From contig DASUCV010000019.1 of the NCBI GenBank assembly GCA_036275915.1, forward strand, positions 1-37,955: DNA of 37,955 bases, read 5' to 3'. Below, one piece after another: positions 1 through 5,044 of the stretch. The notes beneath the pieces were generated by a model. The model saw only the letters and a program-made list of their open reading frames with translations. It did not search any database and was not told the DNA's origin. The stretch is from Candidatus Polarisedimenticolaceae bacterium. Lineage in GTDB: Bacteria; Acidobacteriota; Polarisedimenticolia; Polarisedimenticolales; DASRJG01. The first letter of the stretch is position 1. Every line of letters begins with the position of its first letter. Position numbers and translations under genes: made by a program.

Positions 1-52
1 CAGGATCTTCCCTCGATAAAGTAGACACTTCCGCCTAACTAGGGGGTGTCGG

Positions 53-415
53 ATGGGGCGACCGGGCCCGAAGAAAACGCCAAGCTACGGCCTTGAGTTC
101 AAGCGAGCGGCAGTGCAACTCAGTTACCGTCCCGGGATTCAGGTTCAGGCGGTCGCCGAAGCGCTGGACATCCACCCGTACATGCTGTCGCGATGGCGGA
201 AGGAATTCCGCGAGGGACGCCTTCGGCCCAAAACTGGGGTGTCGAAGCAGAAGACGTCGAGGCCGCCAGTGCGAGAAGTTCGCGCACTGCAGGAGCTCGA
301 GCGTGAGCATCGGATGCTGCAGGAGGAGCATGCCCTCCTAAAAAAAGCCATCCGGTTCTGTTCCGAACAAAAGGCGAGACGTTCACGTTCATCGAAGCGC
401 ACCGGAAATCGATGA
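53..415 (+). CDS. IS3-family transposase OrfA (HTH protein)
   Basis: A 120-residue protein that begins 24 bases inside the left inverted repeat. Residues about 15-60 form the helix-turn-helix of IS3 OrfA proteins, including AVAEALDIHPYMLSRWRKEF, which would bind the element ends. A leucine-rich coiled coil at about 80-100 (LQELEREHRMLQEEHALLKK) fits the OrfA multimerisation zipper. It overlaps orfB by 4 bases (ATGA). A run of seven A at 340-346 permits a -1 shift giving the OrfAB transposase. Free OrfA normally modulates transposition. The reading frame is complete with no internal stop. Confidence 0.9.
   Translation: MGRPGPKKTPSYGLEFKRAAVQLSYRPGIQVQAVAEALDIHPYMLSRWRKEFREGRLRPKTGVSKQKTSRPPVREVRALQELEREHRMLQEEHALLKKAIRFCSEQKARRSRSSKRTGNR
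340..346 (+). other. Programmed -1 frameshift site (A7) for OrfAB transposase
   Basis: Seven consecutive A lie in the orfA frame as A AAA AAA, a standard slippery heptamer. Shifting back one base enters the orfB frame, which is open from here through the orfB ATG at 412. The extra 22 codons between 346 and 412 encode residues such as GETFTFIEAHRKS. This resembles the usual upstream N-terminus of IS3 OrfB domains, so the real transposase is probably the fusion protein. The site and open frame are visible in the sequence; frameshifting itself is inferred. Confidence 0.75.
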
Positions 416-1264: not shown

Positions 1265-1338
1265 CCCACTCGGCTGTCACGCCGCGTGCAGCGCACGCGT
1301 CGCGCCAGCCGGTGGTCGGCTGAACGCATTCGTTAGCG
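1265..1338 (+). repeat. attC-like site, right half, interrupted by the IS
   Basis: Immediately after the IS right end is a sequence with a perfect 7+7 bp hairpin (CGCGTGC 1283-1289, GCACGCG 1293-1299). It is flanked by the outer pair CGGCTG 1271-1276 and CAGCCG 1306-1311, and ends with an L'-like stretch GGCTGAACGC and the core GTTAGCG at 1332-1338. This matches the right three quarters of an integron attC recombination site. Its R''/L'' half should lie left of the IS, outside the window. The core departs from GTTRRRY at two bases, so this is a good but not perfect match. Confidence 0.6.
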
Positions 1339-1353
1339 ACACACGGAACTCGG

Positions 1354-1830
1354 ATGACTGAACTCGATTCCAGGACTAATCGACCGGCCCTGATTTGGAT
1401 GACCCAAGCACTCGTGATCCTGTTGTTTGGAATCGTGAGCGTTGGAGCGCTGGCCGCCACCTTCAAGAAGGGTAATTCGGCTGAGGCGGGCTTGCCCGTC
1501 CTGAGAGTGGTGATGGGCCTTCTGCTCTATTTCGTTTTGGCCGCTCCGATCGCCTACCTCTTCTATGGCCTCCTGCGTCGGCGACCATGGGCGTGGCGCG
1601 GCAGTATCGGATTCGCGATCGTCCTTCTGCTGCTTGTCCTCGTGTCACAACTGGTGCGCTCACAGGGTCCGCTTCCAAAACTCGAGATCGCGCCGAGTCA
1701 ACGCTTCGGAGCGATGTTGGCCCGGATCACCATTCCGCTCCTCCTGTGCGTGTACGTACTCCGCTTGTACTTCAGTACTAAGGTGCGCGCTTTCCTGGGC
1801 GCGCCGCAACGAGCGCAGCATGGTCGCTAA
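1354..1830 (+). CDS. Cassette-borne four-helix membrane protein, unknown function
   Basis: A 158-residue protein not recognised as a known family. It has four hydrophobic segments: about 14-36 (WMTQALVILLFGIVSVGALA), 47-72, 83-102 and 123-142. A basic segment RRRPWAWR separates helices two and three, and the C-terminus is arginine-rich. The start lies 16 bases after the core of the upstream attC-like site, and the stop codon overlaps the R'' core of the next (1825-1831). That is the usual layout of an integron gene cassette. Base composition is less GC-rich than the genes to the right, consistent with acquisition. Function cannot be assigned. Confidence 0.7.
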   Translation: MTELDSRTNRPALIWMTQALVILLFGIVSVGALAATFKKGNSAEAGLPVLRVVMGLLLYFVLAAPIAYLFYGLLRRRPWAWRGSIGFAIVLLLLVLVSQLVRSQGPLPKLEIAPSQRFGAMLARITIPLLLCVYVLRLYFSTKVRAFLGAPQRAQHGR

Positions 1831-1926
1831 CTGCGCGGTCAACGCGCCGCACTCCGTCGTCACGGCGCGTGCTTACTGCGGCACGCGCCGCGCCACCGGG
1901 CGCGCGCGTTACCGCGGGCGTTAGAC
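1825..1926 (+). repeat. Complete attC-like cassette recombination site
   Basis: The left part (R'' ending CTAAC at 1827-1831, then L'' CGCGGTCAACGCG) pairs with the right part (L' CGCGTTACCGCG, R' GTTAGAC at 1920-1926). One unpaired C remains in the left arm, as expected for the extrahelical base that orients attC recombination. The centre holds a perfect 10+10 bp stem (1863-1872 with 1881-1890) around an 8-base loop. R' fits GTTRRRY exactly; the left core is CGCTAAC, one base off RYYYAAC. The site starts on the stop codon of the preceding ORF. The size of 102 bp is within the attC range. Confidence 0.8.
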
Positions 1927-1976
1927 GTCACGAAAGGGGGCACCGCACGCTTCAAGCGCCCGCAAGAAACGCTGCG

Positions 1977-2486
1977 ATGCTCTTCGCCCTTGCATCCTTG
2001 TCGGGGTGCGATCTCGTAGGCAGCTATCTCCGCGGCGATAGGTGCGTCATCCCGGGAACCGTGTACCAGCTGGTGGGAACCGACGCTACTCTGAAGCGGT
2101 TCGAAAGCTCCCCGTGCGTGACAGTAGGAAGCGAATCTCGTGAGCCGGCGCTTCTCCTGTATGTCTTTGATGTCCGGGACTTGAAACGTGGTGGCTTTTC
2201 GAGCATGCAGGGTGGGAGTCAATGGACCCGATACTATGAACGGAGCGATGACGAAGAATTGGAGATCGATACAAGAGCGGGAACTGTGCTTATCAATGGA
2301 ATGAAATTCAAATTGAAAGATGGGAATCTCTTTATCAAGTCCATGTCAGACATGTGCGCGCCAAGAGCTGCGCAAGTGCGGAGGGCCATCACGCCCACTA
2401 TGCCCGTCCGCGAGGTCCTCGGGGTACTGCAGTCGGAGCTGAGCGGTGAATGCGGAACGCTGTCGCTCAGGCCGGGACAACGGTAA
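1977..2486 (+). CDS. Cassette-borne putative lipoprotein, unknown function
   Basis: A 169-residue protein whose N-terminus MLFALASLSGC contains a lipobox (LSGC, Cys 11), so it is probably exported and lipidated. No family is recognised. There are several cysteines in the mature part and a stretch rich in charged residues (RSDDEELEIDTRAG) before a beta-like segment. ATG 1977 is the first conventional start after the attC core at 1920-1926. The resulting signal lacks a basic n-region, although the same frame upstream (GVRRHERGHRTLQAPARNAA) would supply one, so a non-standard start is possible. Parts of the gene are clearly A/T-richer than the surrounding chromosome. The ORF ends just before another attC-like core. 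Confidence 0.6.
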   Translation: MLFALASLSGCDLVGSYLRGDRCVIPGTVYQLVGTDATLKRFESSPCVTVGSESREPALLLYVFDVRDLKRGGFSSMQGGSQWTRYYERSDDEELEIDTRAGTVLINGMKFKLKDGNLFIKSMSDMCAPRAAQVRRAITPTMPVREVLGVLQSELSGECGTLSLRPGQR

Positions 2487-2492
2487 CGTGAC

Positions 2493-2517
2493 GTCTAACT
2501 GGCGCGTCAGCCCGTCG
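2493..2517 (+). repeat. attC-like left half (R''-L''), interrupted by IS fragment
   Basis: GTCTAAC at 2493-2499 is a perfect RYYYAAC core lying 7 bases after the stop of the lipoprotein gene. It is followed by GGCGCGTCAGCC, an L''-like segment. The remainder of the site is replaced by an IS left end starting at about 2520. The L'' segment is complementary, apart from one extra base, to the L' segment of the half site at 1265-1338, as expected for related attC sites in one array. Confidence 0.6.
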
Positions 2518-2519
2518 CA

Positions 2520-2594
2520 GGATCTTCCCTCGATAAAGTAGACACTTCCGCCTAATTACGGGGGTGTCGGATGGGGCGACCAGGCCCAGAGAAA
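2520..2594 (+). mobile_element. Truncated left end of a related IS3-family element
   Basis: These 75 bases closely match the left terminus of the IS at 3-1264. They include the whole inverted repeat and the orfA start; the matching ATG at 2571 begins MGRPGP as in the full copy. Differences (for example CCTAATTACG against CCTAACTAGG, and changes after GGGCGACC) show it is a diverged copy, not a recent duplicate. The orfA remnant stops after 11 codons at the TAG within GTTAGCC. All of orfB and the right repeat are missing, so this is a non-mobile relic left by a deletion. Confidence 0.85.
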
Positions 2595-2608
2595 GAACAT
2601 CGTTAGCC
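2595..2608 (+). repeat. Residual attC-like right tail (L'-R')
   Basis: GAACATCGTTAGCC directly follows the IS fragment. It resembles the tail of the half site at 1265-1338 (GAACGCATTCGTTAGCG) with small deletions, and ends in a GTTAGCC core at 2602-2608. It is most simply the right tail of the same attC whose left half is at 2493-2517. The deletion that removed most of the second IS also removed the central stem. The short length makes this tentative. Confidence 0.45.
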
Positions 2609-2648: not shown

Positions 2649-3350
2649 GTGAAGGTCATCGGCATCGTCGGTGGAATCGGGCCGGAGTCGACGGTCGATT
2701 ACTACCGATTGCTTCTGTCCCGCTTCCGTAAAGCCGGCAGCCACGAGACTCCCGGCATCTTCATCAACAGCATCGATCTGTCGAGGTTACTGTCCCTTGC
2801 AGGACTGGATGACCGTGCCGGCCTCATCGAGTATTTGCTCGGGGCGGTCGAAGCGCTGGCCCGCGCCGGGACGGAGCTCGCCTTGTTTGCGGCGAACACT
2901 CCTCATCTCGTTTTCGACGAGGTCCAGCAGCGCTCGCCGATCGAGCTCGTGAGTATCGTGGAAGCCACGTGCGAGACCGCGCAGGGCATGGGATTGAAGC
3001 GAGTCGGACTGATAGGAGCACGGTTCACAATGCAGGGGGAGTTTTACCCGGCAGCGTTCGCAAGGCGCGGAATCGCCGTGGTCGTTCCGGTGGCCGAGGA
3101 TCAGGTCTACGTTCACGAGAGGTACGTCAACGAGCTGGTGTCGGGAAAGTTCTTGCCTGAGACACGCGCCGGATTCATGGCCGTGATCGAGCGCATGCAT
3201 CGGCGCGACGGGATCGACGGTGTGGTCCTCGGTGGGACCGAGCTGCCGTTGCTCTTGCGAGACTCCGCGCACCCATTGCCGTTCCTCGACACGACGCAGA
3301 TTCACGTCGATGCGGTGGTAGCTCGCGCCCTTGCGGACGCAGCCGGCTAA
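2649..3350 (+). CDS. Aspartate/glutamate racemase-family protein lacking both catalytic cysteines
   Basis: A 233-residue protein of the Asp/Glu racemase superfamily with the expected N-terminal motif IGIVGGIGPESTVDYY (residues 4-19). Family members use two cysteines, in a CNTxH motif and an LGCTE motif. Here these read AANTPH (81-86) and LGGTELPLLL (194-203), so both positions are non-cysteine while the surrounding motifs are intact. The fold is therefore clear, but ordinary two-base racemisation is unlikely. It could act on another substrate, as an isomerase or lyase, or as a binding protein. The start is GTG 2649, with the VOC gene 16 bases downstream, possibly co-transcribed. It lies just beyond the last attC-like core, so it may be the last cassette or the chromosomal flank. 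Confidence 0.8.
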   Translation: MKVIGIVGGIGPESTVDYYRLLLSRFRKAGSHETPGIFINSIDLSRLLSLAGLDDRAGLIEYLLGAVEALARAGTELALFAANTPHLVFDEVQQRSPIELVSIVEATCETAQGMGLKRVGLIGARFTMQGEFYPAAFARRGIAVVVPVAEDQVYVHERYVNELVSGKFLPETRAGFMAVIERMHRRDGIDGVVLGGTELPLLLRDSAHPLPFLDTTQIHVDAVVARALADAAG

Positions 3351-3859: not shown

Positions 3860-5044
3860 TCAGTAGATGTGCAGCTTCTCCAGCAGGGATTCCGTGTCGC
3901 CGACACACTCCAGCAGGTCTTTGTTGTGCTTGATCATCTTGCTGCGCATGTAGACGCGAAGCCACTGTTTGTAGGCGTACAGCTCGTAGCGATCGAGCAG
4001 GTCCGCAAGCGGTAGGTCGCGCTGCGCGAGCAGCCCCGCCAGGAAGATCGCGCATTCGAAGCCCAGCGAGATCGACTGGAAGTACGGCGACCCCATCGCC
4101 GCGTCGCCGACCAGGAACACCGGGGAACGGCCGAACGGGTGATCGGCGCTCTGCCAGGCGCGGCTGGTGGCGTGGCGCGCGTGGTAGAGGTCGAGCGGGA
4201 TCCGGACGATCTCCAGGTCGCCCACGATCTCGCCGTGCGTCTCGTCCTTCACCTTGTCGATGAAGCGGTCCATCGACGCGGCGACGTGCGGGAAGTGGGC
4301 GCGAAGCCAAGGGCCGTCGAAGCGCGACGGCATCCGCTCGTACTCGTCGGCGGAGATGCTCACGATGCCGGTGACGTGGGTGAGGGTGCCGTCGTAGAAC
4401 GTGCGGTTGACCGCGGGGATGAACTTGTAGGCCTGGTTCTCGACGTTCTTGTAGTACTTGCAGTACTCGTTGCAGTCGTACGCCCGTCCGTAGAGGAACG
4501 TGACGACGAGCGCGTACTCGAGCCGGATCCGGAGCGTGTTCGCGTCGTCGTCGCCGGGGCCGGGGACGAGCCGGTCCCGGAGCACGGATCGCGTCCCCGT
4601 GCAGTCGATCAGGACGTCGCCGGGCTCGAGGCGTGCGATCGCGTCATCCGCGGTGACGACCGCCGGGATGCGCTCCACCCGCTGCGACGAGCGCGCGTCG
4701 ATGAGATCGCTGAGGGAGCGCTCGATCGTGTTGAGCGGGCAGAACCCCCGCGACCAATCCCGCAGGAGCGACATCAGATCGGGCGGAATCGACTGCCGGA
4801 ACGCGAGGCCCTCGTCGATCTCCTCGGGAGCGAAGACGGCCTGCACGCTCTCTTCGTCGATGGGGTCGGTGCAGTAGCTCGCGACCGACTCCGCGACGAG
4901 GTAGGGCGCGATCTGCACCATGCGGGTCCGCGTGTACTCGCGCCGCTTCTCGTAGAGGTGCACGGAGAACCGCTCGGTGGATTGGAGGAGCGCGGTGAGG
5001 AGCAGCCCCACGGGGCCCGCGCCGAGGACGTGGATTCTCGTCAT
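3860..5044 (-). CDS. FAD-dependent monooxygenase/hydroxylase-like protein
   Basis: A 394-residue flavoprotein. The N-terminus IHVLGAGPVGLLLTALL is a Rossmann GxGxxG dinucleotide-binding motif. A second FAD motif appears near residue 310 (VFLVGDAAMGSPYF), matching the GD motif of the p-hydroxybenzoate hydroxylase group. A DCTG stretch near residue 148 (VLIDCTGTRSVLRD) also fits these enzymes. Such proteins hydroxylate aromatic or polyketide substrates with NAD(P)H and O2. The substrate here is unknown. It is transcribed alone, divergent from the methyltransferase at 5111 with a 66-base gap. The long plus-strand frame antisense to it is a composition shadow. Confidence 0.82.
   Translation of the reverse strand: MTRIHVLGAGPVGLLLTALLQSTERFSVHLYEKRREYTRTRMVQIAPYLVAESVASYCTDPIDEESVQAVFAPEEIDEGLAFRQSIPPDLMSLLRDWSRGFCPLNTIERSLSDLIDARSSQRVERIPAVVTADDAIARLEPGDVLIDCTGTRSVLRDRLVPGPGDDDANTLRIRLEYALVVTFLYGRAYDCNEYCKYYKNVENQAYKFIPAVNRTFYDGTLTHVTGIVSISADEYERMPSRFDGPWLRAHFPHVAASMDRFIDKVKDETHGEIVGDLEIVRIPLDLYHARHATSRAWQSADHPFGRSPVFLVGDAAMGSPYFQSISLGFECAIFLAGLLAQRDLPLADLLDRYELYAYKQWLRVYMRSKMIKHNKDLLECVGDTESLLEKLHIY

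Follow-up and report, generated by a model that had tools for sequence, protein, structure and literature searches.

Gene cassettes, attC sites and an insertion sequence at the start of a contig

The stretch of DNA analysed here (the window, 37,955 nt) is the start of contig C19 in an Acidobacteriota assembly of 24 contigs and 4.5 Mb, and this contig breaks at an insertion sequence (IS). All on the plus strand, its leftmost part contains an intact IS3-family element of 1262 bp lying within an attC (3–1264), the 3′ part of that site as cut by the IS (attC no. 1, 1265–1338), a cassette ORF (1354–1830), a complete attC no. 2 (1825–1926), a further cassette ORF (1977–2486) and an attC no. 3, the 5′ part of which (2493–2519) is separated from its 3′ remnant (2595–2608) by the left end of a second IS copy (2520–2594; 75 bp, 94 % identical to window positions 1–76).

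The complete attC shares 94 % identity with an attC of contig C2 across 93 bp (BLAST), and 73–89 % with ∼13 other attCs of the same genome on contigs C24, C15, C8 and C4. Its bottom strand folds with −43.6 kcal/mol (z = −4.4 against shuffled sequences, no shuffle being as good) into a structure that has a long central stem and one unpaired base. From an alignment of 12 attCs of this genome a covariance model, R1, was derived, which scored the site at 109.9 bits; as the site was itself among the 12 sequences used for training, more independent evidence comes from the BLAST identity and the fold. R1 also matched the remainder of attC no. 1, at 26.6 bits despite the truncation. A complete site with these structural features had been proposed from the letters of the DNA by an earlier, sequence-only reading, and this was borne out. 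Throughout the genome R1 identified at least 17 attCs, with 17 strong matches on the array strand plus weaker or truncated ones, all confined to six contigs (C2, C4, C8, C15, C19 and C24).

The two incomplete sites are likewise genuine parts of attCs. The first retains its R′ box (CGTTAGCG), whilst the 5′ part of the third comprises L″ and R″ (GTCTAAC) and stops exactly 20 nt past the AAC. An R′ box (GTTAGCC) is retained on the far side of the gap, which exists because the IS fragment is lodged there. The sequence-only reading had recognized both as partial sites but overlooked the IS as the cause. Paired R″/R′ and L″/L′ arms and an extrahelical base were found, and attC nos. 1, 2 and 3 lie between ORFs in a single common orientation, as had been claimed. 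Both ORFs are orphans, again as described beforehand: one specifies a hydrophobic protein of 158 aa with no confident Pfam match, and the other a protein of 169 aa with no Pfam match, the translation of which has a signal with a lipobox-like LSGC. The observation that an ORF stop adjoins every left core is correct for the two that are present, with TAA at 1828–1830 inside R″ of attC no. 2 and TAA at 2484–2486 just ahead of R″ of attC no. 3; the left core of the first site falls outside the window.

To the right of attC no. 3, the R1 search revealed no credible attC within the window, in agreement with the earlier placement of this region at the distal end of an integron cassette array. A minus-strand R1 match at 4001–4105 (20.7 bits) was rejected as chance, as it falls within a gene on that strand. 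Rfam gave zero matches in the window at gathering thresholds. Directly after the last attC remnant is an Asp/Glu racemase-family gene (2649–3350), which could be the last cassette minus its attC or the chromosomal flank.

The IS3-family element

The element was assigned on the basis of Pfam and NCBIfam matches. Its ends were set against complete copies elsewhere, the left flank being on another contig, and carry terminal inverted repeats, GGATCTTCCCTCGATAAAGTAGACAC on the left (3–28, plus) and its counterpart on the right (1239–1264, minus), that match at 23 of 26 positions. Two overlapping ORFs and a frameshift-prone run, as in IS3 elements, are present. OrfA (53–415, plus) is a helix-turn-helix protein (HTH_Tnp_1, 1.5e-10) with a segment, EALDIHPYMLSRWRKEFREG, that in the alignment is common to the attC-inserted elements. 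OrfB (412–1227, plus) is the catalytic part of a DD(35)E transposase (rve, 8.1e-22; NF033516, 279 bits), in which D120, D180 and E216 are invariant in the alignment and 35 residues separate the last two; it is thus of the rve/IS3 type, and its Pfam and NCBIfam matches include no IS110-type domain. An A7G run within orfA (340–347, plus), also carried by several relatives, is the likely site of −1 frameshifting between the two, by analogy with the IS3 family.

The right end of the IS, at 1264, directly adjoins the attC remainder at 1265. Two further IS ends in this genome (C24:1–141 and C8:91095–91210) also lie in attCs at the same place, which brings the ends sharing this one location inside attC to four, all that the genome has of this IS; a search of the whole assembly gave no further long match to the element. 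The flanks of these ends read GGCA and CGCA versus CCCA and CACA, so that no left and right pair has a common duplication. C24–IS–C19 or C24–IS–C8 might be a single array, but their target duplications do not match. Recombination between copies and missing contigs would explain this equally well.

Integrase and other arrays in the host genome

The sequence-only reading had suggested that an integrase, if any, lay to the left of the window. A full-length integron integrase is indeed encoded in the genome (TIGR02249, 455 bits), but it is on contig C2 (2546–3493, minus), and profile searches of contigs C19, C24 and C8 returned no intI match. C24 is the only other contig that ends in a left end of the IS. 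As C19 breaks at the IS and C24 is without intI, the window array could equally be a CALIN or part of a complete integron linked to the C2 integrase.

With regard to the arrays themselves, the C2 integrase gene is codirectional with its cassettes (attCs at 1937–135, minus) and its 3′ end adjoins the array; in class 1 integrons, the integrase is divergent from the cassettes. Additionally, the same ∼540 bp cassette, with an open frame of ∼170–180 codons, occurs three times (C2 760–1300, C2 1830–2420 and L074 735–1280) at 89–94 % identity. Clusters of attC with no integrase were seen on five contigs (C4, C8, C15, C19 and C24), which may represent several CALINs or a single array scattered by assembly breaks.

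Related elements in other bacteria

OrfB was used to search 84,980 species genomes, which yielded 12 loci. The seven closest relatives (62–76 % identity), all in other species of Acidobacteriota and Gemmatimonadota and two of them right ends only, without exception adjoin attC halves, and always in one and the same orientation. Locus L110 is in an attC, as is L111 (43 % OrfB identity), and distant relatives at 31–37 % (L083–L085) had no attC at their flanks. As R1 missed the attCs of other phyla, those sites were judged by R″/R′ boxes, arm pairing and target duplications. An integrase scored above the cut-off in five of the seven host genomes tested.

Searching plasmids with OrfB identified an element inside an attC of pKAZ2 (KR827391.1), a plasmid typed as conjugative IncC, at 43 % OrfB identity; a further attC of the same type is found near record position 91,660. 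The closest OrfB relatives of the pKAZ2 element outside the clade (L130–L134, 43–46 %) are not in attC. With the window OrfA as query, four plasmid records only were returned: pKAZ2, Salinivibrio proteolyticus, Salinivibrio costicola and Candidatus Tenderia electrophaga. In S. proteolyticus the element occupies a VCR-like attC with the duplication TTC, the S. costicola left junction lies 19–20 nt from the AAC of R″, and the Tenderia copy lies in the attC loop, at a spacing of 24 nt, with the duplication CGT. A segment of OrfA close to ALDIHPFMLSRWRKE is common to the attC-inserted elements, the Tenderia form being diverged. Genome searches with an OrfA profile added ten Gemmatimonadota loci and one new Acidobacteriota locus, L162, to the copies already known; viral contigs gave distant IS3 OrfAs only, with neither the motif nor attC flanks, and phage records gave no OrfA match.

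The termini are 5′-TG…CA-3′ in the pKAZ2, Salinivibrio and Tenderia copies; those in Acidobacteriota and Gemmatimonadota mostly start with AG, GG or GA and end in CC. We also observed that the S. proteolyticus copy (NZ_CP114585.1) is itself split by an IS21-type element, and that S. costicola (NZ_CP050268.1) carries two truncated IS3 left ends, head to tail, at 2430–2960.

Position, orientation and target duplications

For 21 of 22 OrfA-side (left) junctions from Acidobacteriota, Gemmatimonadota and gammaproteobacterial plasmids, the AAC of R″ is situated 19–20 nt before the element. More distant IS3 elements served as controls (n = 14); none is in attC, and one has an AAC at this distance. 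A binomial value calculated for these data presupposes random flanks and should be taken to mean no more than 'not chance'. All insertions have one orientation, with the OrfA end toward R″.

A perfect target duplication flanks all 14 copies for which both ends are available, of 4 bp in 11 copies and 3 bp in three, the longer form belonging to Acidobacteriota and Gemmatimonadota and the shorter to Proteobacteria. The window copy is without its left flank, and the evidence for duplication therefore comes from its relatives. In the nine copies read first, the ends of the element were adjusted within one base to show the duplication; for the later five complete copies (L148, L150, L151, L152 and L155) the ends were fixed as GG…ATCC, and a 4 bp duplication was again present in each.

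Furthermore, 13 loci (S. costicola, Tenderia, L148–L157 and L162) were selected blind, on the similarity of their OrfA and with their flanks still unread. L149 was unreadable, as it begins at the edge of its contig, and L153, L154, L156 and L157 are truncated, such that the R″ side alone was seen. All 12 readable loci abut an R″-like box, degenerate in L156 (CCAAAC), at 19–20 nt in 11 cases and at 24 nt in Tenderia.

Folding of the target sites and phylogeny of the transposase

When empty sites were restored by rejoining the flanks minus one duplication, the bottom strand folded better than shuffled sequences, with z of about −3 to −5.7 in eight of nine cases (L079, only −1.1), and the junction fell in the inner stem or close to the loop. 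Across phyla, these sites have the TAAC of R″ and a hairpin in common and little else. This diversity of target sequence suggests that the IS may recognize the structure of attC, although TGCAGC is indeed present in many of the sites.

In a tree of 27 OrfBs, the nine attC-inserted proteins were placed on one side of a single branch (support 83/95, or 96/87 for the eight without Tenderia), and none of 500 label shuffles gave as low a value. As three of the attC-inserted rows are long branches, a single origin of the attC-inserted lineage is no more than likely.

Interpretation and alternative explanations

Taken together, the region is best read as belonging to a chromosomal array of integron cassettes, of which it is the distal part, and as having been invaded by an IS3-family lineage that, judging by where its copies lie, homes to attC (probability ∼0.9). 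IS3 elements transpose through a circle, and the OrfAB transposase made by −1 frameshifting would form one as in other members of the family, which would then be inserted into the inner stem of attC. Instead of a long sequence, the transposase would recognize R″ together with a hairpin that is extruded or single-stranded, and the candidate reader is the distinctive helix-turn-helix of OrfA. As R″ and R′ survive insertion, the IS would become part of the cassette tail and may travel with the cassette. As the insertions are all in one orientation, copies within an array would be direct repeats, and recombination between them would delete or duplicate cassette blocks and could thereby remodel arrays. 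The fuller proposal, namely that a cross-phylum IS3 lineage reads the folded attC hairpin by means of a specialized OrfA and inserts at a fixed distance from R″, leaving the R boxes intact and using cassettes as vehicles, is one that we advance tentatively, at a little under even odds.

Alternatively, the IS might read a short duplex sequence within attC (YTAAC with its spacing, and in part TGCAGC), the hairpin being irrelevant. The near invariance of TAAC at a fixed spacing and the recurrence of TGCAGC in the Acidobacteriota and Gemmatimonadota sites speak for such a mechanism, which is a serious possibility although on balance a doubtful one: TGCAGC is missing from the pKAZ2, both Salinivibrio and the Tenderia sites, a genome contains thousands of bare TAACs and yet all copies are in attC, and the Tenderia site has kept the hairpin but not the spacing.

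We consider it very improbable that there is no targeting at all, and that the element inserts widely and survives only in non-essential attC arrays. Although arrays are dispensable DNA, cassettes commonly contain IS3 elements (which made up 23 % of the cassette transposases in one plant survey; PMC11089894) and the IS3 copies of the Vibrio cholerae integron lie in cassette coding sequence (PMC11023631), survival leaves the one orientation and the one position in attC (21/22 junctions) unexplained, as it does the absence of copies from the bodies of cassettes and from intergenic DNA elsewhere. There is similarly hardly any room for a cassette-like unit moved by the integrase, with the attC halves as its own ends. 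Such halves are always at the flanks and R″ and R′ remain, which speaks for it; however, the halves vary between copies and in this genome belong to the attC family of the host array, and a target duplication of its own lies at the inner ends of every complete copy.

Comparison with known systems

Homing to attC by IS3-family elements appears to be new, although an earlier report is possible in subscription papers or ISfinder; in the open-access papers searched, the IS1111-attC group and group II introns were the only elements described as targeting attC. The former (ISKpn4 and ISPst6; Tetu & Holmes, 2008; Post & Hall, 2009), as far as the account citing these studies describes it (PMC11187229), also inserts at a specific attC location. 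It has, however, a DEDD transposase of the IS110 type that is guided by RNA from a noncoding region (PMC11187229), and it occurs at one end of certain attCs, whereas the lineage described here has a DDE OrfA/OrfB, inverted repeats, 3–4 bp duplications and an insertion point in the inner stem. Group II introns (groups IIC and IIB) are mobile elements likewise associated with integron attCs (PMC7923331), but are retrotransposing ribozymes and, unlike the IS3 lineage, have no transposase. Within the IS3 family itself, IS1397 and ISKpn1 insert in REP palindromes, with a specificity attributed to the transposase (PMC1525189); their targets are REP or palindromic units rather than integron attCs, but they provide a precedent that supports a palindrome preference set by the transposase. 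IS3 copies are also known from a chromosomal cassette array in the V. cholerae superintegron, where recombination between them rearranges the array (PMC11023631), but these are in cassette coding sequence and in opposite orientations, whereas those studied here are in attC and in one orientation. A survey of plant microbiomes found IS3 among the commonest cassette transposases and named IS1111 alone as attC-targeting (PMC11089894).

Integrons carry resistance and other genes between bacteria, and attCs are their working parts. With an unrelated enzyme in an independent lineage, attC would have been chosen as a target more than once. The lineage makes it possible to test clearly whether DNA hairpins can be read by a DDE transposase; were that so, such an enzyme would be using the same hairpin as the integron integrase. 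Moreover, the copy on pKAZ2 indicates that the lineage is not confined to the chromosomes of uncultured bacteria. This environmental plasmid also contains an apparent cassette array (76000–102000 of the record), in which orphan ORFs are accompanied by attCs of at least two types.
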